Assembly (NCBI GenBank): GCA_963971535.1
Contig: OZ020587.1
Coordinates: forward strand, 162,512,491 to 162,576,490
Reading direction: 5' to 3'
DNA from: Notolepis coatsorum
Taxonomy: Eukaryota; Chordata; Actinopteri; Aulopiformes; Paralepididae
DNA length: 64,000 nucleotides
Numbering within the stretch: position 1 is the stretch's first letter; each line of letters opens with the position of its first letter. The position numbers and the translations under genes were made by a program. Below, piece after piece: positions 8,081 through 55,007 of this stretch. The notes under the pieces were generated by a model. It did not search any database and was not told the DNA's origin. It saw only the letters and a program-made list of their open reading frames with translations.

Positions 8081-8865
8081 TGCTGCCCTTTGATTAAAAA
8101 ACGTCCCTATGTCCATTTTCCTTTTTTTTCAGTTATTTCAGTTAGTCTGTACCCAATAGTTCGAAGCTTCGTTCATAATGTTGACATTCGAATTCTAAAT
8201 CAACATAAAAAAAATTATAAAAAAAAAAAAAAAAAAAGTGCCATACCTTGCCATACCAAAATGACGCCCCTGCTGGATCTTGTAAACGAGTCCCAGTGGA
8301 ACAGTAATATCATGCTTTCCCAATGTTTGACCTACTTTGCCACTGCACAGCAATCACACATTTTCTCTTGAAAGTGGTTACCAATGGTTACTGGCAGCCA
8401 TCTTGGAAGAAGGAGAAATATGCAAACATTCCGTGCTAGGCCTCTATTGAGTTTGAAGTGGCTGGATGAATGTTTTAAGCTCATTTGGAATCTTGGGAAT
8501 CACTGAGCCGACCACATAAAAATCCACACAACACCGGAGTAGCCTATCATAAGACCTGCTGGAAAGGACAAAGAAGATGATGCATTTAAAAGGGGACATA
8601 TTATTATACAAATGGGCGTTGTCAAGTTTTTGTTTGGATTTGACGTCTGAAATGTTTAAGTTCTGGGGAAAGATCACAGACACTCTTTGGGCAGAGTTTG
8701 AAGTCTTCAAATGAACAAGCCGTTCAGAATTCTTGCTCGTTTTGATGTCACAAGGGGGACACAAGCATTAAATTATCTTAAATGAAGAAGAAAAAAAACT
8801 ACAAACCCTCATACTGTCTTTTACTATTATGCACTTTGCTACCAAGTAATCTATGCCCATATTAC
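8081..8865. other. Non-coding stretch with a recurring block
   Basis: 8262-8450 (GCTGGATCTTGTAAACGAGT, GCAGCCATCTTGGAAGAAGG, GGCCTCTATT) is another copy of the unclassified recurring block. A poly-A run lies at 8218-8237. The 106-codon minus-strand open frame at 8444-8764 has no recognisable features. Confidence 0.4.
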
Positions 8866-8869
8866 TACC

Positions 8870-8973
8870 TACTATGCTATTATGTCTATACTACTACTTA
8901 CTATGTTAATGTCTATACTACTACCTACTATGTCTATACTACTACCTACTATGTTAATATGTCTATACTACTA
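8870..8973. repeat. TACTACCTACTATG-type tandem repeat, left part
   Basis: Units of TCTATACTACTACCTACTATG, continuing at 11840-12130 on the far side of the large palindrome and in the inverted spacer. The same motif recurs at 30340-30420. Confidence 0.65.
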
Positions 8974-10220
8974 CAGTGGCGGCTCTGCCACTAGGGGCGC
9001 AAGGGCGCCGACCCACCTGCTGTTTAATCAGAGAAGAAGAAAATAAAACTTTAGTTTTTTGTTTTATAGCCCTATAAATAATATAAACATGTTTAAAATG
9101 AATAATATTTACTCATTTTAAGTATGTTTGTATTTCCAATGCACAATATAACGTTATTATCTAAAATAAAAAAAACACTCGTTTTCCTGAGCAGGAAGTG
9201 ACGTTTTTTTTATTTTCTTTTCGTATTTCTCGGCCCGGGCTAGACGCGATAGCGCTCTGAGTGCGCGTCACAGTTTGATCGCTGTATCCGTCACAGCCAA
9301 TCAGTGCATAACGCGTTGTGCGTTGAAATATGACTATTATGTTGGAATCCGGGCGCGATTTGAAGCGGTCTAGCCAGTAGCGTCAAGAATTTCTGTAGCC
9401 GCATTTCGCGGAGACGCTCTCTGATTGGCCGACGCCAGTATTTTTTTCCGTAGCAGAATTTCACAGAGACGATCTCTGATTGGCCGAATCCAATTTCTAA
9501 TGTTCCAATTCTAGCTTCCTAGGTTGGTCCGTTGGTGAGAGATAGTTGTGTTGTTGTGTTGTTGTGAGATGCAGGCAGCAGAGCGTGCCGTGACTGCAAG
9601 TTCTTTAGACGGTTAAGCTTAGGCACTCTTTCAAAGTTGGTTAAGGTTAGAGTTTGTCTTAGAGCATGGCGATAGAACGCCAGGTAGTTTGCAGTCTGTT
9701 CGACGTGGAAAAATGGACAAAGAAATGTACTTGTGTTGTGCTAACAAGCTAACAGTGGCTAACAAGCTATATGGCGGATGCAGTCTGGAGACAGTGGACA
9801 GTGGTCTGGAATACATCAACAGTAGATTATACACGTTTATCAAGCTCTCCTGCCCTGGACGTTTCAACTAAACAGTGAGTCTCTCTCTCTCTCTCTCTCT
9901 CGCTATACACAGCTGTCTCCGCGAAATGCGGCTACGGAAAAAAGTATTGACTGTGCTTGCTGAGACGATAATTAATAGGCTAGCGATTCAAAACGCGCTG
10001 CTGTGTTGTGAACTATAACATTAATTTAGCTGCTGCTGATGCATAATGAATGAATGGTGAGTTGTTTAAAATGACAACATACATGTGTTAATTATTTGAT
10101 TTGATTGATCCGAGAGACAGAGAGAGATTGCTCCAGAGCATCTCAGAGCATTACATTTTCAACTCGACCTATTAACGTGAACTGCGACCCACAAGGCACC
10201 AGCGCCAGCGGCCGCCACTG
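8974..10220. mobile_element. hAT-like element CAGTGGCGGC, copy 1 (left palindrome arm)
   Basis: 1247 bp. Ends are CAGTGGCGGCTCTGCC and ...GCGGCCGCCACTG, perfect over CAGTGGCGGC. The left flank is TACTACTA (8966-8973), the right flank GTGGCAAA (10221-10228). These do not match each other but match copy 2's flanks as reverse complements. A (TC)n tract lies at 9883-9902. No transposase ORF. Confidence 0.9.
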
Positions 10221-10375
10221 GTGGCAAACCATGTTTCCCCTCGGATTAAGAAATAAACCATACCATATTAGCATAGTAGATATTAATATAGACATTAGCA
10301 TAGTAGGTACTACACAGTAAATTTAGCTGAGTACATTTTACTCAAACTGCGAAATTTACTGTGTAGGTAGTAGTA
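10221..10375. other. 155-bp spacer inverted by recombination
   Basis: It lies between two opposed hAT-like copies. Reverse-complementing it restores TACTACTA next to copy 1's right end and TTTGCCAC next to copy 2's left end, so each copy regains a perfect 8-bp target duplication. It contains ACACAGTAAATTT...AAATTTACTGTGT, a short internal inverted repeat. Confidence 0.88.
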
Positions 10376-11628
10376 CAGTGGCGGCCGCTGGCGCTGGTGC
10401 CTTGTGGGTCGCAGTTCACGTTAATAGGTCGAGTTGAAGATGTAATGCTCTGAGATGCTCTGGAGCAATCTCTCTCCGTCTCTCGGATCAATCAAATCAA
10501 ATAATTAACACATGTATGTTGTCATTTTAAACAACTCACCATTCATTCATTATGCATCAGCAGCAGCTAAATTAATGTTATAGTTCACAACACAGCAGCG
10601 CGTTTTGAATCGCTAGCCTATTAATTATCGTCTCAGCAAGCACAGTCAATACTTTTTTCCGTAGCCGCATTTCGCGGAGACAGCTGTGTATAGCGAGAGA
10701 GAGAGAGCGAGAGAGAGAGAGACTCACTGTTTAGTTGAAACGTCCAGGGCAGGAGAGCTTGATAAACGTGTATAATCCACTGTTGATGTATTCCAGACCA
10801 CTGTCCACTGTCTCCAGACTGCATCCGCCATATAGCTTGTTAGCCAAGTGTTAGCTTGTTAGCACAACACAAGTACATTTCTTTGTCCATTTTTCCGCGT
10901 CGAACAGACTGCAAACTACCTGGCGTTCTATCGCCATGCTCTAAGACAAACTCTAACCTTAACCAACTTTGAAAGAGTGCCTAAGCTTAACCGTCTAAAG
11001 AACTTGCAGTCACGGCACGCTCTGCTGCCTGCATCTCACAACAACACAACAACACAACTATCTCTCACCAACGGACCAACCTAGGAAGCTAGAATTGGAA
11101 CATTAGAAATTGGATTCGGCCAATCAGAGATAGTCTCTGTGAAATTCTGCTACGGAAAAAAATACTGGCGTCGGCCAATCAGAGAGCGTCTCCGCGAAAT
11201 GCGGCTACAGAAATTCTTGACGCTACTGGCTAGACCGCTTCAAATCGCGCCCGGATTCCAACATAATAGTCATATTTCAACGCACAACGCGTTATGCACT
11301 GATTGGCTGTGACGGATACAGCGATCAAACTGTGACGCGCACTCAGAGCGCTATCGCGTCTAGCCCGGGCCGAGAAATACGAAAAAATAAAAATAAAAAA
11401 GTCACTTCCTGCTCAGGAAAACGAGTGTTTTTTTATTTTAGATAATAACGTTATATTGTGCATTGGAAATACAAACACTTAAAATGAGTAAATATTATTC
11501 ATTTTAAACATGTTTATATTATTTATAGGGCTATAAAACAAAAAACTAAAAAGTTTTATTTTCTTCTTCTCTGATTAAACAGCAGGTGGGTCGGCGCCCT
11601 TGCGCCCCTAGTGGCAGAGCCGCCACTG
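10376..11628. mobile_element. hAT-like element CAGTGGCGGC, copy 2 (right palindrome arm)
   Basis: 1253 bp, nearly identical to copy 1 in reverse orientation. The left flank is TAGTAGTA (10368-10375), the reverse complement of copy 1's left flank. The right flank is TTTGCCAC (11629-11636), the reverse complement of copy 1's right flank. Small differences from copy 1 include dinucleotide length and a few substitutions. Confidence 0.9.
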
Positions 11629-11839
11629 TTTGCCACCACAGCGAATACAAATATACAAACATGGAAGTAACAATTACATGATACAATACAGGATACACAA
11701 CACAGTAGGAGAGCCTCTCGACACAGTGCTAACGGTGTTCGTTAAAAGATGTTACCGCAGCAGTAGAGCATTGAGGCATCAACATTCATTCATTCATTCA
11801 ACAACCTATCACTAAATGAGCTTCGCAGAGCATAAAAAA

Positions 11840-12275
11840 ATATGCTTATACTACCTACTATCTCTATATTACTAACTACTATATCTACTACCTACTATGC
11901 TAATATGTCTATACTACCTATGCTAATATCTCTATATTACTACCCGTCTATACTACTACTTACTATGCTGATGTCTATACTACCACCTACTATGCTAATA
12001 TGCCTATAGTACTACCTACTATGCTAATAGGTCTATACTACCACCTACTATGCTAATATGTCTATACTGCTAATATGTCTATATTACTACCTACTATGCT
12101 AAATTATGACTATAGTACTACTATGCACTCAAGACTGTAGCACTCAAGTTCAACAGTTTGACGAATAATCATACTTATACCCTTAGCTGCCAGAGTTGTA
12201 CCTTCCTGCCGACTTGTACACAACTTGTAAGTCGCTTTGGATAAAAGCATTCAGTTAAATGACTAAATGTAAATG
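11840..12275. repeat. TATGCTAATATGTCTATACTACTACC repeat, then SINE-like tail
   Basis: 11840-12130 continues the tandem pattern seen left of the palindrome. 12170-12275 ends GTCGCTTTGGATAAAAGCAT, a tail widespread in fish repeats and seen reversed at 30195 and 46455. Confidence 0.6.
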
Positions 12276-16097: not shown

Positions 16098-17772
16098 TTA
16101 ATCACTATCATCAGAGCTGGAGCTGGACTTATTCCTCTTGCTGTGGTTTCTGTCTTTGCCTTTCGTGTTGCGGTTCCGAGTTGGACTTCTTGATTTGTCT
16201 TTGGGGGAGGACTCCCTCTGTGGACTCTTCTTGGAACCGGGACTCCTTCGACCCTTCCTCTTGTCCTCTCGGTCGCTCCTAGAGCTGCTGCTGCGTCGAC
16301 TCCTGGACCTCCTCCGCTGAGAAGAATCATCTTTATTCCTTCTATGAGAGTCTTTGCTGTGGTCCCTATGGTTGCTCTTACTCCTGGAGCGTTTGCCCCG
16401 GTGAGAGTCCCTGGCCTTGTTCCTGTCTGGACTCCGTGTCCGGTCCCGGTTCCTGGACGACCCTCGCCTCCTCTCGTCCCTCTCGCCATGGTGCCGTCTG
16501 TCCAGACTCCTGCTGCGCTCCCTGGCCCTCCCTCTGTCCCGTCCCCTGTCTCTCGACGAAGCGCGTCTACCCCTGTCCCTGCCCCTGCTGTTGGACCGTT
16601 GCCGGTCTTTTGCGGCGTTGCCGTCCCTGTTCCTGCTCCGGGACCTGTGCCTGTCCTTTCCGGCGTTGCTTTCCCGACTCTGCGACTTTGTCCTGCGCCT
16701 CTCACCGTTTCTGCCTTTAGCATCATCTCTGTGTTTTCTGTCAGACTCAGAAGGCTTCTTCCTTTCTTTGCTTTGGTCGGATTCTGACTCTTTATTATCT
16801 TTTCCCTTCGTGCCGTTCTTGTCTTTGCTTCTGGAGCGGCCTCTCCTGTCATCACCCTTGTTTTTCTGATCCCTCTCTCTGCTCTTAGATCGTCCGGTCT
16901 TCTCTCTGCTCTTAGATCTTTCCGTCTTCTCTCTGCTCTTAGATTTTTCGGTCTTGTCTCTGCTCTTGGATCTTCCAGACTTGTCTCTGCTCTTGGATCT
17001 TTCGGTCTTGTCTCTGCTCTTGGATCTTTCGGTCTCGTCTCTGCTCTTGGATCTTTCGGTCTTGTCTCTGCTCTTGGATCTTCCAGACTTCTCTCTGCTC
17101 TTGGATCTTCCAGACTTGTCTCTGCTCTTGGATCTTCCAGACTCGTCTCTGCTCTTGGATCGTCCGGTCTTCTCTCTGCTCTTGGATCTTTCAGACTTGT
17201 CTCTGCTCTTGGATCTTCCAGACTCGTCTCTGCTATTAGATCGTCCGGTCTTCTCTCTGCTCTTCGATCGTCGGGTCTTCTCTATGCTCTTGGATCGTCC
17301 AGACTTGTCTCTGCTCTTAGATCGTCCGGTCTTCTCTCTGCTCTTCGATCGTCCGGTCTTCTCTCTGCTCTTCGATCGTCCGGTCTTCTCTCTGCTCTTC
17401 GATCGTCCGGTCTTCTCTCTGCTCTTAGATCGTCCGGTCTTCTCTCTGCTCTTAGATCGTCCGGTCTTCTCTCTGCTCTTAGATCGTCCGGTCTTCTCTC
17501 TGCTCTTGGATCTTCCGGCCTTCTCTCTGCTCTTGGATCTTCCGGTCTTCTCTCTGCTCTTGCTACGGCTTCGGGACTTGGCCTTCTTCTTGGACTTGTG
17601 TTTGCTGCGCTTGTCTTCCTTCTTGGAATCGTCCTTCTCTTTGCTCTTAGATCTATGGGACCGACCTCTCCGGTCTTTCTTACCCTCAGCAACATCGTGC
17701 TTGGTTTCAGAGACCCTTCTCTCCCCTCTTGGAGGTTTACCAGCTTCGTTCTTGAGATCCGACATATCACCC
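16098..17772 (-). CDS. ppig: PPIG terminal coding exon with expanded RS domain
   Basis: 1675 nt from acceptor CGTTACAG to a stop codon at 16098-16100. The frame joins exon 11 as [15 protein letters not shown]. The first ~85 residues are Lys/Arg/Ser/Asp-rich. Next come about 26 tandem nine-residue units of the type GRSKSREKT, with later units varying to ERSKSRDKT or GRSKSRDES. Then follows a less regular Arg/Ser region ([35 protein letters not shown]), ending [11 protein letters not shown] dipeptides are sites for SRPK/CLK kinases in this family (known). The 27-bp DNA array gives long open frames on both strands, so other ORFs here are shadows. Mammalian PPIG also ends in one long RS exon but lacks this regular expansion as far as I recall. 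Confidence 0.9.
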
Positions 17773-20700
17773 CTGTAACGCAGAGAGGAGAATATCACTT
17801 TTAGCTATGCTGAAATGTCCACCTTCCTCAGTATATGACTGCTAAACATAATAAAAACAAATGTTAAATGTTAAGTGATATATTGGGTAAAATAAAATGG
17901 CTAACTACATCAAACTAATTTACAGTCAATTGAGTGTGTTTATTGATGGCCTCTGGGTCAATTGACCCATCTCAAGCTCCACCCTCTTTTCTTGATCCTC
18001 CAATCATGACCGTATCTTCCCCCGAGTGTGAAAGGAGGGTTTGTCTGAGGGAAGCAATGGTTGTGATTGAAAGATCAGGAAAAGGGGGCAGGGTTTCAGA
18101 TAGGTCCAATTACATTGGTCTGCTTTGAAACGCAATATCATTGGCCTTTCATTTGCATTCAGAGCAGGAAATGTAACTCGTTCAATGTACAAGCTACAGT
18201 GGTTAGTAGTAGGGATGCAATATTTGGTGAAAGATTGAGATTATTGTGGACAATATTGCGATTGCGACATAATACATAAATTATGTCAGTCTACTTAATA
18301 ATAATAACTTTATTTTAGGGCTCTCAGTTTATCGCGTTAATTAGATTAATTAATTACACAGCAAATTATCGCGTTATGAAAATTAACTAAAAACTAATAA
18401 TTTTATTTTTTATTTAAATATTCTTTTTATCTCATTCATTCCATAAGAACGTAGAATACACATTTACAGAAGTTTTTTTAATATGGTCCATTTGCATGTT
18501 CTTGGTATCTGATTCTAGGGACATCTATGGATCTCAGGGAATGTATTCCCAGTGTCAGACACTGTGTCCGTTACTAGGCTCGAGTAAATTGTGATGAACC
18601 AAATGAGAATATCAATTTTTTTTTATCTTTGACTGAATAACACCATGCTAAAATTGACCAGACCTGAAAAATCTAAGCAAATGAATAAATGGAAGATAAT
18701 TAAACAGAAGGTTTTGTAGATACAGTACTGAATTCTGCCATCCGGACACATGCAATTTGAAATAGCATTATAGAATATCAGGCCTAAAATGGTTATGAGA
18801 TTAAAATGGGATTAATTAGATAAATATTTTTTATCGCCCGACAGCACTACTTTATTTGTATAGCACTTTTCATAAAGAAGTTGCAGTTCAAAGTGCTTCA
18901 CAACAGTAAAAAATACAGGCATAAGCAAGCATAAAAAAGATAGAGGTAGCAAGGTAAGGTAAATCAGTGTTTCACATTCACATACTTGCTTGGTTATCAA
19001 GGAAAATAGCGATTACTGTACTGATAGTTTTGAAATGTTCATTTCTAAACTCAAACATACATGCAATAAAAAAAAAATTAAAAATAGGGCTGTCAATATT
19101 TAAATTGTAAAAAATGTTATCTCCCTTTTTGAGCCCAACCACCTCCCATAGTTTGATCTCCTCCCAGATGGCCGGTGACGTGTTTGTTTACATTCCTGAA
19201 TCACATGCGCAACAGGGAGAATAGTACGGTGGACCAGACATTCCCCGAATGTCTCATTTCATAATACGTTTTCCGAATGGACGTTTGGATTATATAGAAG
19301 TATAATATAGAATAATACATTATATAAATGTATAGATACATGTGTGTGTGTGTGTGTATAAATGAATGAATCTAAATATGTAGTTTGACTGATAGATACA
19401 CAAAATGGGGTTATTTATGTTGATTTAATTTAGTTGTGTTGATGTTTCCATTTTTGCAAAATGGGTATTATTCTGTTTGGTTTTACCTACCTGTAAACCC
19501 GAGAGAGAGAGTTTAGTAGGCCGTTTTTGGCCGTCGAAGCTTCGGGGCAGAGATTCGATTTTAATTCGAAGCTTCTAGATTTTTTTTTTTTTATAATAAT
19601 AACAAATTTTATCTTATGTTGTGAGACTTGTGCAGCACTTTGGTCAACTTTGTTGTTTTTAAATGTTCTCTATAACGGCGTCTGGGTGGCGCAGCGGACA
19701 TTGCGCTCGTCACCAACGCAAGAGACACTGGGTTCGACTCCGGCTGTCGGCATTGCCTCCGGCTTGGGCCAGTCGTCATACTAACTCAATTGGCAGAGTT
19801 AGCGGGTGGAAGTCGATGGGTGGTAATCTGGACGTTGTAAACAGCGACTCCTACAGGTCAGTTGGGGGATGCCTGCACAGCAGACAGGAAATGGCGGGGG
19901 TAGTGTGAGCCTCGCACACATTACACCTCGCCAATGAGAGTCCGCGCTGGCAGGTGAAAAGATGTGACAGGCTGCCTCCTTGTGTATCGGAGGTGATACA
20001 AGGCTTCTATCATCCCTACAATCCGACAGGGGAGGGGAGAATTGGCACAGCGGGTAATTGGAATAATCTTTTTGGATAACATCTGATCTCAGGTAAGGAA
20101 TCTATTTTACCAGTCTTAGGATAATCAGACCTGTTTTCACGGAGATATAAGTGTTTGCCCTATGTGTGTATGTGGCTGTGTGGCTGTGATCGCTGATGAG
20201 GAAATGAGAATCGATTTTTCAGCCCGCCTCTATAGCGTGCATAAGTACACATATACTATGCACATATACTATCGATAATCTAGCGTTTATTTGAAAACTA
20301 TTCATAAATAGGCAAAAAAATTACACTGTTTGTGTATTCTAGAATATTCCAGTAAATGCCTTTTATCACGGAATCTTTATATTTTCCTTGAAAACGAGGG
20401 CTTTTCAAAATGCTATAAAAAGGATATGAACAGATTAAAAAACAATCCGTTTCGACAATGTTGACTGCAAACAAGTCATTGATAAGTGACAGGCAGATTA
20501 GACAGCCATAATTTAAAACATAAATTATGCATTTTTAACGCCATCATTGAAGTGGATGCTGGCACTCAACAGGGTTTTCAATGTTAAATGGCCGGCACTG
20601 AAATTGTTAACACATTGGACGCCAACAACGTGATAATTCGTTATTGCCCGCCATGCGTTGAACACCAATTCGTTGTTGGGATCAATATAAAAAATGTTCG

Positions 20701-23700: not shown

Positions 23701-26700
23701 CTGTGTATGTGTGTACAGCTAACTTGGCTAGCGTTATGAACAGCAGAGGTGGGCAATAGGGTCCAGCTGCAGCGCCGGACGGCCGGAGTGCAAGCGGTGT
23801 GACGTAATTGGCAGACTCGACTGTCAATCAATGGTCTACCTGACACGCAAACTCATAAACAATGTTTCTGTACTGGAGGTGTACAGTATTTCAATAGGCA
23901 ACCCTGAAAGGATTATTTCTCTAGAAGAGCAACACAGCCAAAACATAGGCATTGTATGCATAAAAGCGGTAAAAGCTAAAGTTAAGTGACTGTTACTTTT
24001 GTAGCAGTAGTTTGATTTGATAGTTTATTTGATAAGTTTATTTGATAGGGACAGCACATGTTAATGAACATCAAGTACAAAATGTAAACATGCAGGGTTG
24101 TAGCAAGAGCTAATTTACACACATGCACGAACAGTACAAATATACATTTATTAAAAAAGAATTTAAATTTGTTTTACTTGAAATATTTTCACTGTGCTCC
24201 CAAATATTTTTGGGTGCTCCTAAATTTCTTTGTGTGCTCCTAACTTTTTTCATTTAGGAGCACCTGTGCCCCTAGTGAAAAAGGTTAGCGTAGAGCCCTG
24301 GTCTAAAGCACTACACAGCTGAGCAGAGCGTGCGTCTAAAACACTACACAGCTGAGCAGAGCGTGCGTCTAAAACACTACACAGCTGAGCAGAGCGTGTC
24401 TAAAACGCTACACAGCTGAGCAGAGCGTGCGTCTAAAACACTACACAGCTGAGCAGAGCGTGAGTCTAAATCGCTACACAGCTGAGCAGAGCGTGCGTCT
24501 AAAACGCTACACAGCTGAGCAGAGCGTGCGTCTAAAACGCTACACAGCTGAGCAGAGCGTGCGTCTAAAACGCTACACAGCTGAGCAGAGCGTGCGTCTA
24601 AAACACCACACAGCTGAGCAGAGCGTGAGTCTAAAACACCACACAGCTGAGCAGAGCGTGCGTCTAAAACGCTACACAGCTGAGCAGAGCGTGCGTCTAA
24701 AACGCTACACAGCTGAGCAGAGCGTGCGTCTAAAACGCTACACAGCTGAGCAGAGCGTGCGTCTAAAACGCTACACAGCTGAGCAGAGCGTGCGTCTAAA
24801 ATGCTGCACAGCTGAGCAGAGCGTGCGTCTAAAACGCTACACAGCTGAGCAGAGCGTGCGTCTAAAACACTACACAGCTGAGCAGAGCGTGTCTAAAAGC
24901 TGAGCAGAGCGTGTCTTACTTGTCGCCCTTGATCCAGCGCTCCCCGCTGGCCGCCCTCGGCCTCATGCGCTGCATCTCCTGTCGCCAGTGGGGAGGAGTC
25001 TCACTGCGGCGGAAACGGTCCCTCGACCGGGAGCGGGAGGGCGTGCGATATCGCTGAGAGAGAGAGAGAGAGGGGGGGGGGGTATAACATTAAAACATGG
25101 TCATGCCCGTCTTGTACTGTAATCATAACTACCTACCCCATTACTAGTCTACCCATATAACTCTGTATGACAGCATGTACAATAGTGCAGGATATATACG
25201 TATATATATATACACTTTTATATTTACCGCGCATATATATATATGCATATCTGTCTGAGTGAATATACCTGCATACAATCCTTCTATATACCTACCTGCA
25301 TATAACCCATAACGCTGTATGATAGCATGTACAATAATGCTGTATATACCATATATATATATATATATAATTATATAGGTTTGATGCACCTACCCGTGGG
25401 CCCCTGCCTTTGATCTTCCTGCCAGACCGCGTCATCACAAGCCTCCGGTTATAGGCTGACTGAGTATTAAGCATCCTGCGAGGGGGGGGGGGGGGGGTGT
25501 CATGTAAATTAACTGACATCAGCAAACAAAGTTGTTTTCCAACACAGACGTGTTTGTGAGAGATGAAAAATCAGACAGAATTGTGATCAATATCACCCTG
25601 ATCACAATTGACCCATCTCAAACCCCAGTAGGACTTACTACCATAGTGTCTTTATACGTGTATCACTGTACATATTAATACTACAACTCTGTACATACAT
25701 CTGAATAACACCATTACTCAGTAGTACTAATTTATATATTTTATACCCAGTTTAAAATCACCTGTACATTGTATATTACTGTTGCACTTCACGGTTACAT
25801 TTGCACTCTGGTTGGATGTAAAACTTGTTTTCGTTGTGCTGTACTTGTGCTGCATGATGATAATACATTTCAATCTAATTTGGGTTTGAGATAGGTCCAC
25901 GTCTCTAATAAAGAAAAGAGGGCAGGGTCTGAGATCCCAGTCTGCTCAGGTTAGTCACTGTGCGTTTACTGGATGATAAACAAATGACGTATATCACACC
26001 AGCTAGGGTACCTCATTTATACTGCACCCGTGTATACTGTATACTTTAGTATATATTTAGATTCTAGTGTTTATTGTAACCATATGTATTGTAATGTATA
26101 ATATAACAGACCCTCATCTGCACCTTTGATCACACTGCCTACTTGCTCAGATGCATATATTCAGAGTTAACTATATTGTTTACACTGCCTATATTAACTT
26201 TTCTACTGTACTATACTTGTATTGCCTATATTTATGTCAGTCTTTCTACTATTAAACTGCCCATACCTGTACCTCCTCCATGCTGCTATGACGCCTGAAT
26301 TTCCCCAAGGGGATCAATAAAGGAATATCTTATCACGCGCACGTTAGCTTGGATATAAACATGGATTTGGTTCCCCGGGCAGAGTGAGTGAGAGAGACAG
26401 AGAGACACAGACCTTTCTCTCGGCCGTTCCTCTTTATTCCGCCGGGCGTTCCCGGGCTCCCCCGTCTGCTGGGGACTCCTCCTCATCAGGAACCTGTTCT
26501 CCGGGATGGAAGGGATCTCCTCGGGCCGCACGGAAGACAAATGCAGATCGTTGTCCTCCTCCTCTTTGTCCTCGCTGCTCTCGGCCTCCGACCTGAGGAG
26601 GACATTTATAGATCAGGGACACGAATGTATCGAGTCTCCGAATAGCAGCGCACGCACATAGAATGTCATGGTAACCTTGCCAGTAATCCCAGAACAAGGA

Positions 26701-31079: not shown

Positions 31080-34000
31080 TTTTTACAAGTCGATTAATTT
31101 CGATATAGAATATTTGTTGACAGCCCTACAAGTACAATTAGTTACTTCACACTACATCACCCCTGAGTTACATGGAAAGCCAAACTTTCCCCCACTGTAC
31201 CGAAAACCTGTACCGAACCTTGAATTCAAAAACCGAGGTACGTACCGTACCGTGGTTTTGGTGTACCGTTACACCCCTACTAGACACTCAAAGCGATCCC
31301 CACAATGTAGGGTGGAAATTGGGCATAAAATATTGTTTGTTTCTGGTTGCCGACCGACCCTGCCGATTTAGGTGCGGCCCAATATATTTTATGAGTTTAT
31401 TATATATAAAAAAAAAAAAGGCATACAAGTATACAATTAAATGCGGGTGGTCTTGCCCGCAACGATGTGCAATACAGTAGTACAACATATAATAGAATCC
31501 AATAGACAACATTGTGCAATAAACAGGTAACATAGTGAGACATCACGGTATTTGTACATAGTTATTTACAGAGCATGAAGGACATGCTAGGTCCCTTGGT
31601 AGTGCAATACACTGTTACTATTCTATTTTTAAATTGACCTTTCCTTTGTGGCCATAAGTGTGGGCGTGTGCAGCATGAGTGAGTGGCTGCTAGTGTGCGA
31701 GCGTGCACAGCGTGTGTGTGCTAATGTGTGCTTGTGTGTGTAGGGTTCAGTGTTCTGTGACCCTCAGTGTTCATTGTTCAAGGCTCTGATGGCCTAGGGG
31801 AAGAAGCTGAGCCGAAGCCTCTCTGTCCTAGTAGCTGGTGTTCGCAGGCGTCTGCCTGACCTCAGCAGCTGGAACAGGTTGTTATTGGGGTGGTGAGGGT
31901 CTTTCATTATTCTGCAGGCTCTGGATTTGCACCTCTTGTTGTATAGAACCTGCAGGGGAGGTAGTGCAATACCTCATAATACTCTCTGTAGGGCCTTCTT
32001 GTCCTGTGCCGTGCTGTTGCCATACCAGGCAGTGATGTTTCCAGTCAAGATGCTCTCTACAGCTCCGGAGTAGAAGGACTGGAGTATCTTCCCAGATACT
32101 CTGAACTTCCTTAACTGTCTCAGGTGGTAGAGGCGCTGCTTCGCCTTTTTTACAACTGTGTCTATGTGTGTTGACCATGTCAGATCCTCTGAGATGTGGA
32201 CCCCCAGGTACTTAAAGCTGCTCACCCTGTCCACGGTGGCCCCGTTTATCCTCAGTGGTGTGTGTGTCTCCTGCTGTCCTCTCCTATAATCCACGATCAG
32301 CTCCTTGGTTTTACCAATGTTCAGGAGCAGGCTGTTGTCCTGGCACCAGCGTTCCAGTACCTCAACCTCCTCCCGGTAGGCCTTCTCGTCGTTGTCCGAG
32401 ATCAGCCCCACCACCACTGTGTCATCTGCAAACTTCACTATGGAGTTGGAGCTGAACTTGGCCACACAGTCGTGTGTGTGTATAGTGAGTACAGCAGGGG
32501 GCTCAGAACACAGCCCTGGGGGGACCCGATGCTCAGGGTGATGGTGTTGGAGGTCTGACCCCCCACCCTGACCGCCTGGGGTCTTTCACTCAGAAAGTCC
32601 AGTACCCAGGCGCTCAGAGCAGAGCTCAGACCCAGCTCGATCAGCTTGTCCACCAGTCTGGTGGAGACTATGGTGTTGAACGCTGAGCTGTAGTCAATGA
32701 ACAACAGTCTCACATAGCCCCCCTTCTGACGGTCCAGGTGAGAGAGGGTGCTGTGCAGTACTTGGGAGACCGCATCGTCAGTGGACCTGTTTGGCCTGTA
32801 TGCAAATTGCATAGGGTCCATATCGCTGGGGAGGGAGGCACAAATGTGATCCTTGACCAGCCTCTCGAAACATTTCATGGCCACAGAGGTGAGTGCCACC
32901 GGTCTGTAGTCATTGAGACCTGCTGGGGAGGGTTTCTTTGGTACCGGGATAATGGTAGACATCTTGAAGCAGGCAGGGACCACTGACTCCTTCAGGGATC
33001 GATTAAATATGGTGGTGAACACAGGGGCTAGCTGGTTAGCACAGGACTTGAGTATGCGTCCTGTTATTCCATCTGGGCCAGCCGCCTTCCTGGTGTTCAC
33101 CTGCATAAATGCTCTTCTCACACTGTGTACCGTCAATGAGAGCGTCCCCGCCCCCCCGTGGATGCCCCCCCCCCCCCCCCCCCCCCCCTCTAGAAATCTT
33201 AGTCAAATCTTTAGTATTATGGATATTAAACATGCTGGCAGAGTACATGCATCCATGTTGTTGTGAACATTTTAATTAAATAAAGAAATTCCCTATCCAT
33301 AGTCGCCGTGGGAAAGAATAAAAAAAAAATCCCTACCTACCCATGCCTTAACTGACAACCAACAGGAAACAAACAATATTTTTTTTTATGCCTTGCCTCC
33401 TTCACCACCACTGGTAGCACCCAACCTTGGGCTACGCAGGCTCAATGGCTGCCTGCCATACACTGGCACCAGGCACATAGCACACTACCCAATGGCTGAA
33501 CGGCTCAGGAGACAGGGATTAATATCAGCCAATTAAGGGGAAGGGGTGATTAGGTGGCCTTGATGTCAGAGACCCGATTGGGACATCGGGGAACCCTCTA
33601 CTCTTTGCAATAAGCACCCTGGGTTCTTTTAAGGACCGAATTCAGTCAGGACCTCGGTTTAGCGTCTCATCCGAAGGACGGCACTTGCAGCTGTACGGTG
33701 TCCCTATCACTGTAACAGGGGCATCGACGCATCGTTACTGACTAGTCCAGAGGACAGAGTGCCCCCTGCTGTACAACAATACCACTTTCCGACAACGGCC
33801 TTGACCGGGGCACAAACCGGTGATCATGAGTCTGGAGCTCTACTCATGTAGCAACGCTGCCGGGGAATATTTAATTTAATTAATTTAGACTCTAAAAGGC
33901 AACTGAGGCTTCCCTCATTCACAGTCACGTCGAGTGTACAATACAGTTAGGCAAACGCAGAGTTAAGCAAAAAAAAGGGCATATCAAATCACATACAATC

Positions 34001-37000: not shown

Positions 37001-40000
37001 TGTATGATGACAATACATTTTAATTAGGGATGCTCGATATTGGCTTTTTTACCGATACCGATATACCAATATTGTCCAACTCTTAATTTCCGATACCGAT
37101 ATCAACCGATAACAACAGATACCGATATATGCAGGGTTTCCCCCCCCCCCAAAAATGGAATAATTTCAGGTAATTAACATTACATATCTCTTGTTGTGGA
37201 ATTAACACAACATTATGCATACTTTGACAATAAATAAAATCAGAATTTGTTCTTACTTGCTTGCCTGGGTAAATAAAGGTTATAGAAATGTGGAAAAAAA
37301 GAAGAAATAAATTGAAAACAGATAGATATTTTCCGATATCACATTTTAATGCAGATATCGGCCGATAATATCGGTAGGCCGATAATATCGGACATCCCTA
37401 ATTTGAATCTAACCTAAATACCATGACAATCTAATATTATACTTAAAAACAGCTGAGTTCTTGTTTTTTTTTACCTTCAAAAAAGCCTCCATAGATGGAT
37501 TCACCCCCTCTTCCATTTCCTGTTAAGGGATAAAGAGATCAGTTAGTATCCTCACAGGGGAAATAACCTTAATCCATTCTCTGCCGGGCTTATATCCATC
37601 CTAAACCATCCTCCGCCAGTGCTATTTGTCTATGGAGATGTTCACCTTCTTTGCAGGGCTATAACTTTTTTAATTGTATTGCTAAATTGACATTACTATG
37701 GCCCATTCAACATCAATTATCTATCGTTCAGGATGTAGGAACGTTTTACTTTTTCATTCACACTAAAATACCGTCTAGAGTATAAATATGTTTATCATTT
37801 TCTGCAGTATTTCATAGAACGTGAGATATAGGCCTAAATGCATATATTAGATGATCAAATGCAGTTTGATACCGTTATGACTTATCATCTGCGGGTGAAC
37901 GGAGGGGGGGGGGGGGGGGGTAGTTTATAATTCCGTGGCCGACGTTAAATCATTTATGTAGTATGGGTGATATATAGATCAGAGCAGTTTGTATGGATAA
38001 TAATAAACAAAAACGCTGAAAGTAACGTCAGCCTCCTCTTACCGTTGGGCGATCACACTGGCGCAAACAGATCCCAGTTATGTGATGTTGATCGAGGTGA
38101 TCCAGTTACGGTTTGTATAATACTAATATACGTCCAAATCATGTTTATTGAGTTATGGCAACGGATCGATATCTACGGTGTCTGGATTGAGTCCCGGGAG
38201 CGATAACGAGTGGCCGGACGAAAATAGGGGACGGGCACTTCCGGTTTTGGCAACTCGCCGATCGGCCACCAGGTGGCGGTATTGAAGCGTTGCAGAGTTG
38301 TGATGGCCCAGACAACATCACCCAAGACTCTGTGGGTGAAATGTGAATACCATGACGAAAATATGAAATATTGATCTCAAAGACGCCTTACGGCATCATT
38401 GGCAGATTACGCATGGCGGAGAATGACGTGTTAACACGTCATCGGCGGAGAATGGGTTAATGTAAACTAAAGAATGACAATCTACCATATTCACACGGCA
38501 GACATTTCGCTCTTATGTCATGTTCAGTTTGGGATTCCGTTCCATCTTGTTCCCACAGGGCGACGGGTAATCCCAACCCGAGCGTGACATAAGAGCTAAA
38601 TGTCTTAACTCATTCCCCACCAACTCATTCCCCACCAACAACGAGTTTACTCGTTATTGGGAGCCAACACTTGAACGCCAACAACGAGTAGAACGCCAAC
38701 AACGAGTATACTCGTTGTTTGATTGTTTTCCCCTGATATTTTTATTCATTATTCATCCAGGGACCTTGGTGTTACCATAGGGAATGAGTCTGAGATCGCC
38801 AAAGTGCAATACCGGCCGCATCCAGCTAGACGGCGGTATCGAGCACCCTTTGAAACCTTGTATCTTGGCCTGTGCAACGGTCAAATGTCACCGGGAGCAC
38901 TTTTCTTTGTCGGGCGAATGGAGCGGTAATAACGATCGGATTGAGAAGCGTCAAATGCTCCCGATGCATGATGTGTGGTGGATTATGTTGGCGACACGAT
39001 TGACACCAATACTGGGACTCGCGATCAGATAATTGGAATATTCTTTTTGGGGTACATCCTAGTGAAGGTAAGGGCTATATGATATCAATCCTGCGTTGAT
39101 CCAACCATGTCTTCACCTCGATCACAACGTGTGTGTAACATTACTCCCCAACGTATGCCGTTGGTGACGATCAAAGCATCAAACACCCGCCCCCCCCCCC
39201 CCCCCCGGCAACCCACCGAAAGAGAAACTAGGGCTGGGCGATAAAACGATAATTATCGCGATATATTTTAACACATTGTGCGCCATAAACGGTGTAAGGC
39301 GTTATTGCCCGCCATGCGTTGAACACCAACAACGGCGTAAATCGTTTTTGGGATCTGTGACGTACGTGGGTTGGTCATTATCATCATTACTGTATTTGGA
39401 AGACCATATGAACATCAGGTTAGTATAATTAGTATGTGTTATGTTATTTTTGTTTGTGTGATGCGTCATCTTCTAATCCCGTTTCTCTTTCTCCCTTCCC
39501 AGATACCACTCATCCCCCTGATTGAGCTGATTGCACCTGCTTGATTGCACCTGTGGGCAGTCAGTTGGATTAGGGCTAGGCGATATGACGATATTATATA
39601 AATATCGGGTACAGTTCATTAACGATACACTTTTTCAACGTATCGTGGATATCGTGATGTTTTGCCCAAGAGGATTGTGTCGCGTCAATCTGTCCACACG
39701 TTACTCGTTCATATCTCAGCCCGTGCTGAGATATGCCCATTCCGCGGTCTGTTAATAAAGTTTTCAATCAGACAGATGTATGGAAAGGCTTTTATTATAA
39801 CATTCGTTGTAGTAAAATCATTATGCCTCATTTAGTCATCCTGTTGAGCACTGGTCTCCTACTCGACGGCCGCGGGGAGCTAACGTTAGTAGCTTTGTTG
39901 ACGTTGTTCAGCCACAGGACATTCAGGAAGTAAAAAACTAGGAGCTTGCCGATTGGTGCTAAGAACAGCAGGGCGGGTGCAAGCGCTGTGACGTAATTGG

Positions 40001-40207
40001 CAGACTCGACTGTCAATCAAAATTATATGTTTCCGTCAGAATGAATGAGTGAAGACTTTGTTAAAGGGTTGCAGAATGGGTACAATACAGTACAGGAGGA
40101 TGAAGACCAGAAAAAGACTTTCGACTTTTTTACATAAGGGTCCTCCATTTTCAATTCATCAAAACATTTAGAGACATACATATATACAGTAGTTTCATTA
40201 AAATGCT

Positions 40208-40242
<35 letters not shown>

Positions 40243-47904: not shown

Positions 47905-50866
47905 TTAGACCTGCAGCTCCGTTGAGGCAAGCCAGGCCAACGTTTCATCGTCCAGTTCCATCAGACCGCGTTCTCCATACGGTGGCCGGTGTTTGGAGCA
48001 ACTGGTGATTATATGTTCCACAGTCTGTGCAGGGGCTCCACACTCGCATGAGGCACTGTCCTTGAGGCCCCACCTCTTCATTGAGGCGCTGTAGCGTCCG
48101 ACGCCGGTCCTTAGGCAGTTGAGGGTTGTCCACTGCTTCCGGGGCAAGTCCTGACCAGGGACGTCCAGATGGTCATTGATGAAGAGGTGCAGCCTGGATG
48201 GCAGCGTTTCCGTTAGCCGGTAATTACCGGTATTTGACTGGCAAAATCTGTTGAAGTCCGACATATTTAATCTCTCCGGTCTTAATGTCCGGTGAAAATA
48301 ATTCCCTGAGTCTAAGCACAATTTGATTATTTGAATTGTATTAAAATAGGCTAAAATTAAATAGCCTATGCGATGAACGAAACGATCATTACATTTGTTT
48401 CCTCGTTGCTTCTAATAATGACAACGACGTTGTCAGCGAGAGCTTAGTGCTGGGTGTGCGAACTTTTGTGAAGCTGCAGAGCCGGAGCAGCAGCAGCACA
48501 ATGCAGTATTCCAGCAGTACTCCAATTCAGCCATTTTCAATTCAATGTTGGGTGGGGGACGCTGCTGTGCGGTCCCCAGAAAAGAGCCAATAACAGCTGA
48601 ATCAGCTGCTCTGCAGCGCCATACTCTTTGCAAATAAGTCGTTGCGAGGTGGAGAGAGTCGTCACGCAAACCCACGATAATGTTGCCGTCTCTCTGCCAA
48701 ATTTCTCAGTTCTTCGCTTGATATAATTAATACAAATGTCCAATATAACGGAATTCGTTAGCTCATAAAAATGTGATTATAACAGACTGTTGTTTATTAA
48801 TGTCGGGCGACTGCCCACAGACACCCATTTGATTTAAAGTCGGCAGCAGCACGAGTCTCGGGACTTATTTTATTTGGAATATAATGACTTTATACGCAAA
48901 AGTAGCCTAGTTTTAAGTAAAAATATTATAAATCTACATGCCTTGATGATGCCATTCTTTTGTTTTGTCATCATTCTTTTGCCTATCAATTGTTTTTAAG
49001 CTCAATAAACTGACCGGAATTTCTCTCATTTGACCGGTAGATTGAAATCTACCGGACACTGAGGCCGGCAACAATTTTTTCTAACGGAAACCCTGCTGGA
49101 TGGTTCTGCTGACCTCCACTGGTCCCTCCATCTCGTCCTGACCCAGGAGGCCTTGGAAGTGTCAGATGGTGTTGTGTAGAGTAGCCTGTAAGCTTGCATG
49201 GAAAAGGGGCGCCGTGACTTTAGGCGCACACGTCGTGGTGTCTCTGTGGTGGTATTGTGAAGGAGGTGGGATGCACTGATCTGTGCCTTGCGGGAAAGCG
49301 CCAGTGTGGCTGCTTCTCGTCTGATGGTAGCCGGGGCAATACCAGCGAGTACGGGCAGTTGGTTTACCGGTGTGGCTTGTAGGCAACCAGAGACTGTCCG
49401 CAGGACGCTGTTGAGAACAACATACAGGTTCTTCACGTGGGTGCTACGGCACCAGACCGGGCGCAGTACTCGGCGGCAGAGAACACCAGGGCCAGTGAGG
49501 AGATGCGCAGTGTCTTTGTTGAGGCTCCCCATGTGGTGCCGGCTAGTCGTCGTATCAGCGCGGCACGGGCAGTTGTTTTTCCCCTGGCACCTTCCAGGTG
49601 TTGTTTGAATGACAGTGTTCTGTCAAGCGTCACACCAAGGTATGTGGGGGTATGTTGGTACTGTAGCCGGACGTTATATCTCACGGGTCGCTTCCCTGTT
49701 GTTGAGGTGGAACATTGTAGACATTGTCTTTCCCATGCTGAGCTTGAGACGCCAGTTCCTCAGGTATGAAGACAGGATGTTCATATCTTCAGTGAGGCCC
49801 TCTTCGGCTGCTTCCCAAGTTGGCTTGCTGAGTAGGATGGCCAGGTCGTCTGCATAGCCATACTGCTTTGATTGAGTTGCAGGCAGGTCGTATATGTAGA
49901 TGTTAAACAGCATCGGTGCCAGCACTGAGCCCTGTGGGACGCCATTCCTAAGTTTCCTCACTCTGCTGCATTGGCCGTTGCTGGTGTGTAGCCGGAAACT
50001 GCGGTTGCTCAGCATCTCCATGATGAAGCTCACCATGTGCTTGTCTGGGATGGTTTCCAGAAGCTTCATGTGGAGACCACGCAGCCATACAGTGTCATAT
50101 GCAGCTGTGAGATCCAGGAATACAGCGCCGGCCTTCTCACCTGCCTGGAAGCTGTCCTCTATGTCTTGGCACAAGAGGGTCACCTGGTCTGCCATAGACC
50201 TACCACTTCGAAAGCCAGCTTGTTCTTTGGGCAGCTGGGGGACGATCACTGGGTTGAGACGTGAGTGGAGGAGGCGTTCCAGGAGCTTGAAAGGCACACA
50301 TAGTGAGATGGGCCGGTATCCCTTTGGGTCGTCGCTAGGCTTATTCGGCTTTGGCAGGGCGATCACCTTGGCTCGGCGCCAGATCTTTGGCAGCCTCACG
50401 CAGCGGAAACACATGGAGAGGAAGGAGCACAGCCAGTCGGTTGCCTTCTTGCCTTGGTGTTTAATGTATTCCGGGTGGATGTTGTCAACGCCTGGTGCCT
50501 TACCGGTTTTCAGCCGTCTGATGGCCTGCTCGATTTCTTGTGCTGTGAAATCGTGGGATAGGTTGGAGTCGCATCCCATCGCCCTGTGCAGCTCATGGAC
50601 TCTTGCCGATGTTGTTCTGGCGAAATCCTTGTCTGCATTTGGGAAGCGGCCGTTGCTCAGCAGTAGCGATGCGATGGAGTTTGCCGTGATGGGACACTGT
50701 GCTGTGGTTGTCGACCTGCCTGTCAGCTTGTTCATGGTCTGCCACGCCTTTCGGCTGGAGTGTGTGAAGTCGATAGATTCCACTGTCTCTGTCCATCTTT
50801 GCCTTCGTTTCTCATTCAGCCTGCAGAATAGGTTGTTCGCCGTTACGTCCCGGTCTTCACTGGTTT
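47905..50866 (-). pseudogene. Reverse transcriptase remnant with C-terminal zinc motif
   Basis: The longest frame (49674-50783, 369 codons) holds KTGKAPGVDNIHPEYIKHQG, KPSDDPKGYRPISL, motif A VFLDLTAAYDTVW, motif B NGVPQGSVLAPMLFNIYI and motif C YGYADDLAILL. It then shifts frame to 49433-49684 (TPTYLGVTLDRTLSFKQHLE) and to 49026-49532 (VLNSVLRTVSGCLQATP, LPVLAGIAPATIRREAA). After the hAT insertion, 47905-48190 gives DLPRKQWTTLNCLRTGVGRY and a Cys/His cluster, CECGAPAQTVEHIITSCSKH. All catalytic RT motifs survive, but at least two frameshifts and an insertion make it non-functional. Clade placement is from general resemblance only. Confidence 0.85.
48202..49095. mobile_element. hAT-like element CAGCGTTTCCGTTAGCC, copy 1
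   Basis: 894 bp with ends CAGCGTTTCCGTTAG and TCTAACGGAAACCCTG, flanked by perfect CTGGATGG (48194-48201 and 49096-49103) inside the LINE. Copy 2 is at 59655. No transposase ORF. Confidence 0.95.
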
Positions 50867-50870
50867 GAGC

Positions 50871-51145
50871 TTCTGTGTGGGCACACAGAAGTCAATTGTG
50901 TTGATGTTAGTTTTGTTTCATCAACAAATGAGGCAGAACAGAACACAGTGAATGTATCTGTTTTTGTTTATTGCACTTTATTTCTTGCTGAAAAATAAAT
51001 GCTATGTAGCTAAATGGCTCATTCGAGGTATAAAGATGGTGGCTTTTCTGAGATTTTGAGCAGGATGTGGAGTGACTCGTTCAACCTTTCTGATTGGTTG
51101 AAAATGGCCTTCATGTTTGAACTACATCGCCACCTACTGCTTTGG
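50871..51145. other. Short unclassified stretch
   Basis: It includes GTGAATGTATCTGTTTTTGT and TGAACTACATCGCCACCTAC. No gene or repeat borders seen. Confidence 0.35.
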
Positions 51146-51839: not shown

Positions 51840-52880
51840 CCGTTCTGCCCGTTCCGAGATCTGATGCGAACTCCCCCCCCCCTCTCCCCCCTCTAGTTTG
51901 TGTACACACTTCAGTCTGGGTGCGCTCTGGGTTTTGTTTACAGTTTGCGTTTTGAGCTTGCCGTAGTCGATGATGTCACGCTCGAAATGTAAACACAGGA
52001 AGTGTTAACACGGAGACTGGAGAATGGATGTTGATATAAAGAAACAAATAACTAATAAATATGAAGTTATATTTGAACCTCTGTTGTTGTCAAGCCTTGT
52101 CAATATAACCCACCCCCCTTTTCTCACGAATGGAACTCTGTTGTAGAGTCCGCTTTTGATCGTTTTGCAGGGTTAACAATAACGCTAAGCTAACGGCTAC
52201 CGCTAGTTAGCTTTATAACCTTTTACTAGTAACATTGCTCGCATCGATTATATTGAATGTCATTGATCTACTGGTCGACCGAAAATGTAAACGGGAATGT
52301 CTTAACACGACTGCGGACTCTGGATGTTGATATAAAATGAACAAATTGCCAATAAATATGAAGTTATATTTGAACCTCTGTTGTCAAGCCTCGTCAATAT
52401 AACCCACCCCATTTTATCACGAATGGATGGTGTTGTAGAGTCCGCTTTTGAGCGTTTTGAGCGATCTACTGGTCGACCACGGCCGACTGGTTGGGAACCA
52501 CTGGTCTAATAGAAATAAATGCATTCGAACAATGTATAGACATAGCAATGGCAAACAAAATTTATGACGTTATGTCAGCACCAGGCGCCACGCCCGTGAA
52601 AAGGTACAAGCTCGCAAAGCCACCCGGGGCCGAACCCGAGACCACCTCTGCCAGCTGATCCCGTTCAGCGGGGGGTGAAACGAATCAGAGCCGTTTCGCA
52701 CCCCAAAAGGGGTGAGTGAGAACACTCCCCCCCCCGTGCTCCGGGACGGTGATTCGATACAAAAGGCTGAGTGTGAAAGCCCCCTTAAATACTTCAAAGC
52801 TTCGTTCGATGGGACGAGCTTCGAACATTAAAAAGAAAAGTTTATATATTTTTTTTACTTCGATTTTTGTGTGCGTGTTT
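51840..52880. other. Interior of the composite, no gene
   Basis: Two imperfect direct copies of ACAAATAACTAATAAATATG / ACAAATTGCCAATAAATATG followed by AAGTTATATTTGAACCTCTG (52043-52160 and 52335-52450). 52560-52790 has terminal-like inverted content (CACGCCCGTGAAAAGG, CCCAAAAGGGGTG). C-runs at 51689 and 51873. Confidence 0.4.
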
Positions 52881-53836
52881 TAGGGCTGGGCGATATGGCC
52901 TAAATATGATATCACGATATTTTCTGACCTTTCGGCGATACACGATACACATCACGATGTTTTTCTTTTTTACCCTAAACAATTCATTATGAGGCTTACC
53001 AAGACAGTATTTGATTTTGCAAGCTAACATTAAAGACAAAATAAAATACCCATGCATTTAGCATTTTTATATTATATATTAGATTTAGATTATTAGATTA
53101 TATATTGCATATATTTAGCAATGAGATATTATATGATTTAGATATGAAATATGATGAATTGAAAATGTGGGACCCTGATGTAAACAAGACTAAAGTCTTT
53201 CTCTGGTCTGCATCCCCTTAACAATTGTATGTATTGAGCTGTACTGTACCCATTCTGCAATATGTTAATAAAGTTTTAAATCAATCAATCAATAGCATTT
53301 TAGCATTTTTATGAAACTACTGTATATATGTATGTCTCTAAATGTTTTGATGAATTGAAAATAGAGGACCCTTATGTAAAAAAGTCGAAAGTCTTTTTCT
53401 GGTCTTCATCCTCCTGTACTGTATTGTACCCATTCTGCAACCCTTTAACAAAGTCTTCACTCATTCATTCTGATGGAAACATAATAATTTTGATTGACAG
53501 TCGAGTCTGCCAATTACGTCACAGCGCTTGCACCCGCCCTGCTGTTCTTAGCACCAATCGGCAAGCGCTACTAGTTTTTGACTTCCTGAATGTCCTGTGT
53601 GCTGAACAACGTCAACAAAGCTACTAACGTTAGCTCCCCGCGGCCGTCGAGTAGGAGACCAGTGCTCCACAGGATGACTAAATGAGGCATAATGATTTTA
53701 CTAGAGATGTTCCGATACCATTTTTCCCTTTCCGATCCGATTCCGATACCTAAGCTTTGGGTATCGGCCGATACCGATATTTATCCGATACCAGTGCATA
53801 CAAAAAAAATTTAAAAAAAAATTATATAAATTATAC

Positions 53837-53868
<32 letters not shown>

Positions 53869-55007
53869 ACTGTTATACTGTTTTTTAGTAATAACTAGAA
53901 CGTATGGTATTTATTCAACAACAGGTGATTGTATAGATTTGTATTAGTACTGCAGATATACCCTACTCCAATGATCCACACGGACATTAAACGGTGTTGC
54001 ACTCGCTACTCAGTGGCTCTGCAGATATACCCTATTCAGTCTGTAAGCTAGTGGCAGATAGAAGTTCGTTCATGTTGTGATTTTTGATGCAAAATAAATA
54101 TTCAACATTCTCTTTTGAAACTCCGCCTCAGACTCTTATCCTTTGGCACTTGCTGTACTTTGCTTGCAGGTCTGCAGCCATTATTGCTGGATTATGTGAA
54201 TAGCACCAACTTTAGACACGGTAACGTTATCAAGCTAAGCTAACTGACCTAGCTCGCCTTCCCGCATCGACATTAAGATAACGTTAGTAATAGTCAGCTA
54301 ACGCTAGTCCGTAGCTACTTAACTTAAATACAATTCACCGTGGGTGCATTATTGTTGATAGACGGTCACGGACAGTGTTAGGTCCTGGAGAAAGGACAGG
54401 CGATCATCTGATTTGATGTAACGTTAAAAGCGGATGTTGTTCCAACTAGCTATCTTTCCAGCTAATGCTATCATAACACCAGCCAAACACATCCCGATTC
54501 CCGTCCGAGCTCCCCGTCACACCGCACTGTCGGGGACAATGGAATTTAAGAAAGTGTATCTGCTGTTAAAATGACACAGCATCACACTTTAAAACATGTT
54601 CATTTTATAATCCTCACTCTCCGCAGGACTCGGCAGGAGATAAATTACATCATGGGATCGGAGGCTAGAATTTACGTGTACTCGCCGATACCGATACTAG
54701 CATTTTAGGCAGTATCGGCGGCATTTCCGATACTAGTATCGGTATCGGAACAACTCTAGATTTTACTACAACGAATGTTATAATAAAAGCCTTTCCATAC
54801 ATCTGTCTGATTGAAAACTTTATTAACAGACCGCGGAATGGGCATATCTCAGCACGGGCTAAGATATGAACGAGTAACGTGTGGACAGATTGACGCGACA
54901 CAATCCTCTTGGGCAAAACATCACGATATCCACGATACGTTGAAAAAGTGTATCGTTAATGAACTGTACCCGATATTTATATAATATCGTCATATCGCCC
55001 AGCCCTA
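52881..55007. mobile_element. hAT-like element TAGGGCTGGGCGATA, copy 4, with nested insertion
   Basis: 2127 bp with ends TAGGGCTGGGCGATATGG and GTCATATCGCCCAGCCCTA. Flanks GCGTGTTT and GCGTGTGT differ at one base. Removing the element at 53702-54758 leaves 1062 bp, a reverse-oriented match to 39571-40640 (1070 bp). Confidence 0.9.
53702..54758. mobile_element. hAT-like element TAGAGATGTTCCGATACC
   Basis: 1057 bp with ends TAGAGATGTTCCGATACC and GGTATCGGAACAACTCTA, flanked by perfect GATTTTAC (53694-53701 and 54759-54766). A T-run lies at 53829-53863. Confidence 0.94.

Follow-up and report, generated by a model that had tools for sequence, protein, structure and literature searches.

Two opposed copies of a non-autonomous hAT-like element enclose a 155-bp spacer that has been inverted between them, and the two copies have exchanged halves of their 8-bp target-site duplications. 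The inversion itself is confirmed, both by the flanks of the copies and by related sequences that retain the ancestral spacer orientation next to the right copy. It would be best explained, with a probability of about 0.6, by homologous recombination between two copies that were already in place. The locus lies in a window of 64,000 bp (the whole stretch of DNA analysed, G000:C8:162512491-162576490) of a 3.42-Gb assembly. The positions given to the two opposed copies in an earlier note on this DNA, 8974-10220 and 10376-11628, proved exact, and the features of the palindrome are as follows.

8852..8974 (+): TACTACC/TACTATG minisatellite, the insertion target of copy L
8966..8973 (+): outer left flank TACTACTA, by direct reading; the other half of this duplication stands, as the reverse complement, at 10368-10375
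8974..10220 (+): copy L, non-autonomous hAT-like element, 1247 bp, CT tract of 22
10221..10375 (-): inverted spacer, 155 bp, holding one copy of each target-site duplicate; the ancestral orientation is the reverse complement
10221..10228 (-): GTGGCAAA, the reverse complement of TTTGCCAC and displaced duplicate of the site of copy R
10310..10366 (no strand): small inverted repeat within the spacer, 18-bp arms with 21 bp between
10368..10375 (-): TAGTAGTA, the reverse complement of TACTACTA and displaced duplicate of the site of copy L
10376..11628 (-): copy R, same family as L, 1253 bp, CT tract of 28
11629..11636 (+): outer right flank of R, TTTGCCAC; an empty site in 18/18 of the examined paralogues, with one base altered in one of them
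11629..11839 (+): dispersed host repeat, split by the insertion of R; the rest of the repeat forms the first ~47 bp of the spacer and is at present in inverted orientation

As read, copy L is flanked by TACTACTA and GTGGCAAA, and copy R by TAGTAGTA and TTTGCCAC. When the segment 10221-10375 is flipped both 8-bp duplications become perfect, with zero bases gained or lost at all four junctions; direct reading thus bears out the earlier description of mismatched flanks that a turn of the spacer makes perfect. Both copies start with CAGTGGCGGC and end with GCCGCCACTG. The two arms, described before as nearly perfect, align over their whole length with 1234/1257 identical positions and 12 gap columns (BLASTN), i.e. 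98% including gaps. With MAFFT, the arms differ in 1256 columns by 11 substitutions and 12 gap columns, and the three longest stretches of identity measure 253, 234 and 230 bp.

Independent evidence for the inversion comes from paralogues of the host repeat. A search with 11629-11839 gave 39 other matches among those listed (40 of 680 candidates were scored), and 18 of the 39 were examined. In all 18, sequence matching the end of the flipped spacer (...GGGGAAACATGG) directly precedes the target site. The match spans ~47 bp in 16 of them and is short in L052 and L069, with just 14 and 12 identical bases right before the site; L074 has the single change in the site, and L073 lacks one base just before it. 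Alignment scores of the paralogues are 16 to 41 against the flipped spacer end and -11 to -1 against the present end. BLAST searches of 7 paralogue loci gave, in each, two matches whose overlap is precisely the 8 target-site bases, and these loci are therefore empty sites. The same 8-base overlap was seen at four places from a search with the spacer that were compared with the host-repeat matches (C30, C1, C23 and C2590). The ancestral uninverted order with an empty target site was found, from paralogues, at the right breakpoint only.

The minisatellite points the same way. The array at 8852-8974 has the same orientation as that at 11855-12083 and the opposite orientation to the array within the spacer (10265-10306), in keeping with the earlier proposal that turning the spacer rejoins the tandem repeat. 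From the paralogues and the opposed spacer minisatellite together, the order before the inversion was minisatellite, flipped spacer, host repeat. Among 40 scored matches of 1832 first-look candidates, the whole spacer was found once in the assembly, at the present locus, with no second orientation, haplotype or locus. Continued flipping of such a palindrome, or extrusion of a cruciform, is possible.

The family to which the element belongs numbers at least 448 copies in the genome whose internal landmark is intact and whose CT tract is 4 to 96 long (79 + 283 + 86 by length class), a count that leaves out longer CT tracts and copies with an altered landmark. Seventy-five copy loci were fetched; 3 were skipped (two being the window's own copies and one a repeat of the nested place described below) and 7 more were dropped for odd structure, leaving 65 in addition to the window's two. 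An 8-bp target-site duplication is perfect in 47 of the 51 full-length copies of the same genome with both flanks, and has one mismatch in 2, three in 1 and five in 1, the 51 not all being independent because at least three pairs have common flanks (L011/L015, L032/L033, L045/L046). The exchanged flanks of L and R are outside this norm and not due to chance. One further full-length copy, L029 (G000:C44:96532629-96534908), has mismatched flanks, CTCTTGAT / CTCCCAGC; its left flank is common with a truncated copy, L044, ~22 kb away, and it is possibly another rearrangement.

The terminal inverted repeats of the family have CAGTGGCGGC at both ends (10 bp, perfect), a type of end that we take to be typical of hAT. 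The earlier label hAT-like fits both the duplication length and these termini. No stop-to-stop open reading frame of at least 110 aa lies within 8974-11628, and the element is therefore non-autonomous. The genome is rich in hAT dimerisation domains (150 matches were scored of 10698 first-look candidates), with a link to this family assigned to none of them. A literature search with the terminal motif CAGTGGCGG gave, among the matches listed and judged by title, one paper on silkworm MITEs, the others being seemingly unrelated. Over 1166 clean columns L and R each carry 3 substitutions from the family majority, and the median for 41 others is 5. Divergence in this young, nearly star-like family is low.

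We suggest the following origin for the palindrome. Young non-autonomous hAT-like copies would have come to lie opposed, ~150 bp apart, one in the minisatellite (at site TACTACTA) and one in the dispersed repeat (at site TTTGCCAC). Homologous recombination between the inverted copies would then have turned round the segment between the crossover points, and the flip would have left one half of each target-site duplication beside the wrong element. Both opposed homologous copies at the two breakpoints and exchanged duplications, which recombination calls for, were found. Recombination is also favoured because all four junctions are base-perfect, where excision and repair would leave footprints. 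We infer that the spacer was flipped in this way rather than by aberrant transposition, and that the insertions were earlier than the flip. Two independent insertions followed by recombination is also what the earlier note had proposed; the inversion in that proposal stands and its mechanism is plausible and unproven, since insertion of a hybrid element predicts the same flanks.

This second and less probable explanation begins with a single copy at TACTACTA. After replication, hAT transposase would take the 5' end of the copy on one chromatid together with the 3' end of that on the other, and the ends from the two sister chromatids would be inserted together at TTTGCCAC, ~150 bp off. One event would thus give an inverted duplicate of the element, inversion of the segment and exchange of the 8-bp duplications, i.e. 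the observed anatomy, with no coincidence needed for the close spacing. The elements Ac/Ds of maize are hAT elements. Their alternative transposition is documented to leave 8-bp duplications at inversion junctions, a likeness to the present locus (PMC8225341). The outcome of hybrid insertion is called "strikingly similar" to that of ectopic recombination in PMC2775673, where the copies are described as chimeric after ectopic recombination and as identical after hybrid-element insertion.

The relatedness of L and R bears on the choice between the two, and the assignment of about 0.6 to recombination, with the lesser share to hybrid insertion, is a matter of judgement. Hybrid copies would be identical at birth, but L and R now differ by the substitutions and gap columns given above. 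Of the derived substitutions in clean columns, 3 are in L, 3 in R and 0 in common. L and R are therefore joined via the majority sequence of the family, which is what separate insertions during a burst would give. If the two have a common origin nevertheless, the differences between them mean that this origin would have to be about as old as the burst. On the other side, L and R resemble each other more than most pairs do: among the other 902 pairs, 153 are more identical (122 in clean columns), a likeness expected of two low-divergence copies. Further points count against hybrid insertion: 12/41 other copies are nearer to L than R is and 8/41 nearer to R than L is, and a T at element position 733 is present in L and 8 other copies and absent in R, though the site is a CpG. 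In a tree of 41 rows without any starred branch, forcing L and R into one group lowers the log-likelihood by 6.37 units, though an AU p of 0.368 does not reject the grouping.

The CT tracts may speak for hybrid insertion. Those of L and R (22 and 28) are the two shortest of 41 measured, and a single 6-bp deletion would convert the tract of R into that of L (BLASTN alignment). Genome-wide, a tract of 28 or less is found in 30/448 copies, L and R included, and the probability that two random copies are both this short is about 0.004, a post hoc value for a pattern noticed after the fact. Such short tracts may reflect a common ancestor of the two copies, or shortening of the repeat inside the palindrome.

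A chimeric signature was looked for in L and R and none was seen, the nearly star-like family yielding no phase-informative alleles. L089, which holds both the 2-bp deletion of L (element position 76) and the TA deletion of R (position 150), was considered as a link for an L-R chimera and rejected, as it belongs to a subfamily unlike L and R at many sites and both deletions, each seen also in a few other copies, affect a run of T or a TA pair, which are prone to homoplasy. Three apparent further sharers of these deletions (L061, L093 and L101) are merely truncated at those positions. Gene conversion between the arms, raised earlier as something an alignment might reveal, was not borne out: an informal comparison by pair ranking and run lengths gave no sign of homogenisation, several copies being nearer to L or to R than these are to each other.

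The close spacing of two insertions would be unlikely under random insertion: the genome should then contain about 0.009 pairs with spacers no longer than 155 bp for 448 copies, and 0.18 for 2000 copies. At least 4 pairs within 3 kb were found among 265 listed positions of the 448 copies (these including the first 100 of the 283 copies in one length class) versus 0.06 expected, and family copies therefore cluster. The four are the window pair, a nested pair on C6, C4:13061061/13063639 and C21:49064934/49066816. The C4 and C21 pairs are same-strand, and both may be due to segmental duplication. A linked origin of the second copy of the palindrome is thus attractive, and is compatible alike with hybrid insertion and with a local hop followed by recombination; in the latter case the second copy may well be the product of a local hop of the first.

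In the nested pair (L105:1509-4027, G000:C6:93206008-93208526) one copy lies inside an opposed copy and both duplications are perfect, the inner copy having AAAGAGTG and the outer one CAAGCCTG. Separate close opposed insertions therefore occur in the family, as the recombination reading supposes. Three end-to-end places fall in the spacing class of 140-170 bp, the window pair among them. At C6:128400116, element ends were not found at the expected distance in the two 151-base stretches read, and this place may be another family. At G000:C8:82968549-82968736, two element-like ends 168 bp apart face each other in repetitive sequence, and the spacer between them has GGTGGGTG at either end.

The remaining explanations are far weaker. 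Long palindromes are error-prone in assemblies, and a misassembly could in principle have made the palindrome or set the spacer orientation. The differences between the arms are scattered, however, and the palindrome is therefore no simple foldback of a read, which would have identical arms. The flanks agree with a biological inversion at every base, and the 40 scored matches include no alternative copy of the complete spacer. On these sequence grounds an artefact appears very unlikely. Cutting by transposase at the two inner ends, with the spacer fragment rejoined in reverse, would also turn the spacer. Excision of hAT elements normally leaves footprints at the joined ends, but all four junctions here are perfect, and this route is correspondingly improbable. 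Reversed-ends transposition does not match the locus, because the segment between the elements is lost in that process, as described for maize in PMC8225341, and a new duplication arises at a new site; the present locus has retained its spacer, and its two duplications have been exchanged.

Elsewhere in the window there is a second near-identical inverted repeat pair (39571-40641 and 52880-55007; 249 bp of 99% and 838 bp of 96% identity), its arms being 12-15 kb apart. A repeat-rich open frame of 568 codons at 16098-17804 (-) includes a 27-bp minisatellite of 25.5 copies at 16874-17562, and gave no Pfam match at E 0.001. A 33-bp minisatellite of 18 copies at 24301-24898 is open in frames on both strands. 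Reverse transcriptase fragments (PF00078) are found at 31974-33202 (-) and 49674-50891 (-).

The general mechanism has precedents in Drosophila, maize and cod; what is found here is an instance of very small size, exact to the base. In Drosophila, an exchange of duplications between opposed transposon copies is established as evidence. A close parallel is inversion 2z3 of Drosophila buzzatii, where, according to PMC2775673, opposed copies of the cut-and-paste transposon Galileo at the breakpoints have exchanged target-site duplications and the non-inverted state has single target copies. Galileo is of the P superfamily with 7-bp duplications, and its inversion is chromosomal with chimeric copies, whereas the element here is hAT-like with 8-bp duplications and a 155-bp spacer. 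In Atlantic cod, non-autonomous hAT elements (MITEs) likewise lie at inversion breakpoints and are ascribed to ectopic recombination in PMC12368964. To judge by its repeat types, the present genome may be that of a teleost. The cod inversions are large and their MITEs form tandem arrays; the micro-inversion here has two single copies and its exchanged duplications can be read.

If hybrid insertion were true, micro-events of this sort would be to animals what alternative transposition is to maize, and would give rise to long palindromes that are nearly perfect. The micro-inversion is small enough for every junction and both duplications to be read, and the genome around it has hundreds of further copies of this young element. 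The locus is a tractable place for asking whether closely spaced, opposed transposon copies come to be flipped through recombination or arise already flipped from an aberrant transposition, and whether palindromes of this kind keep flipping.
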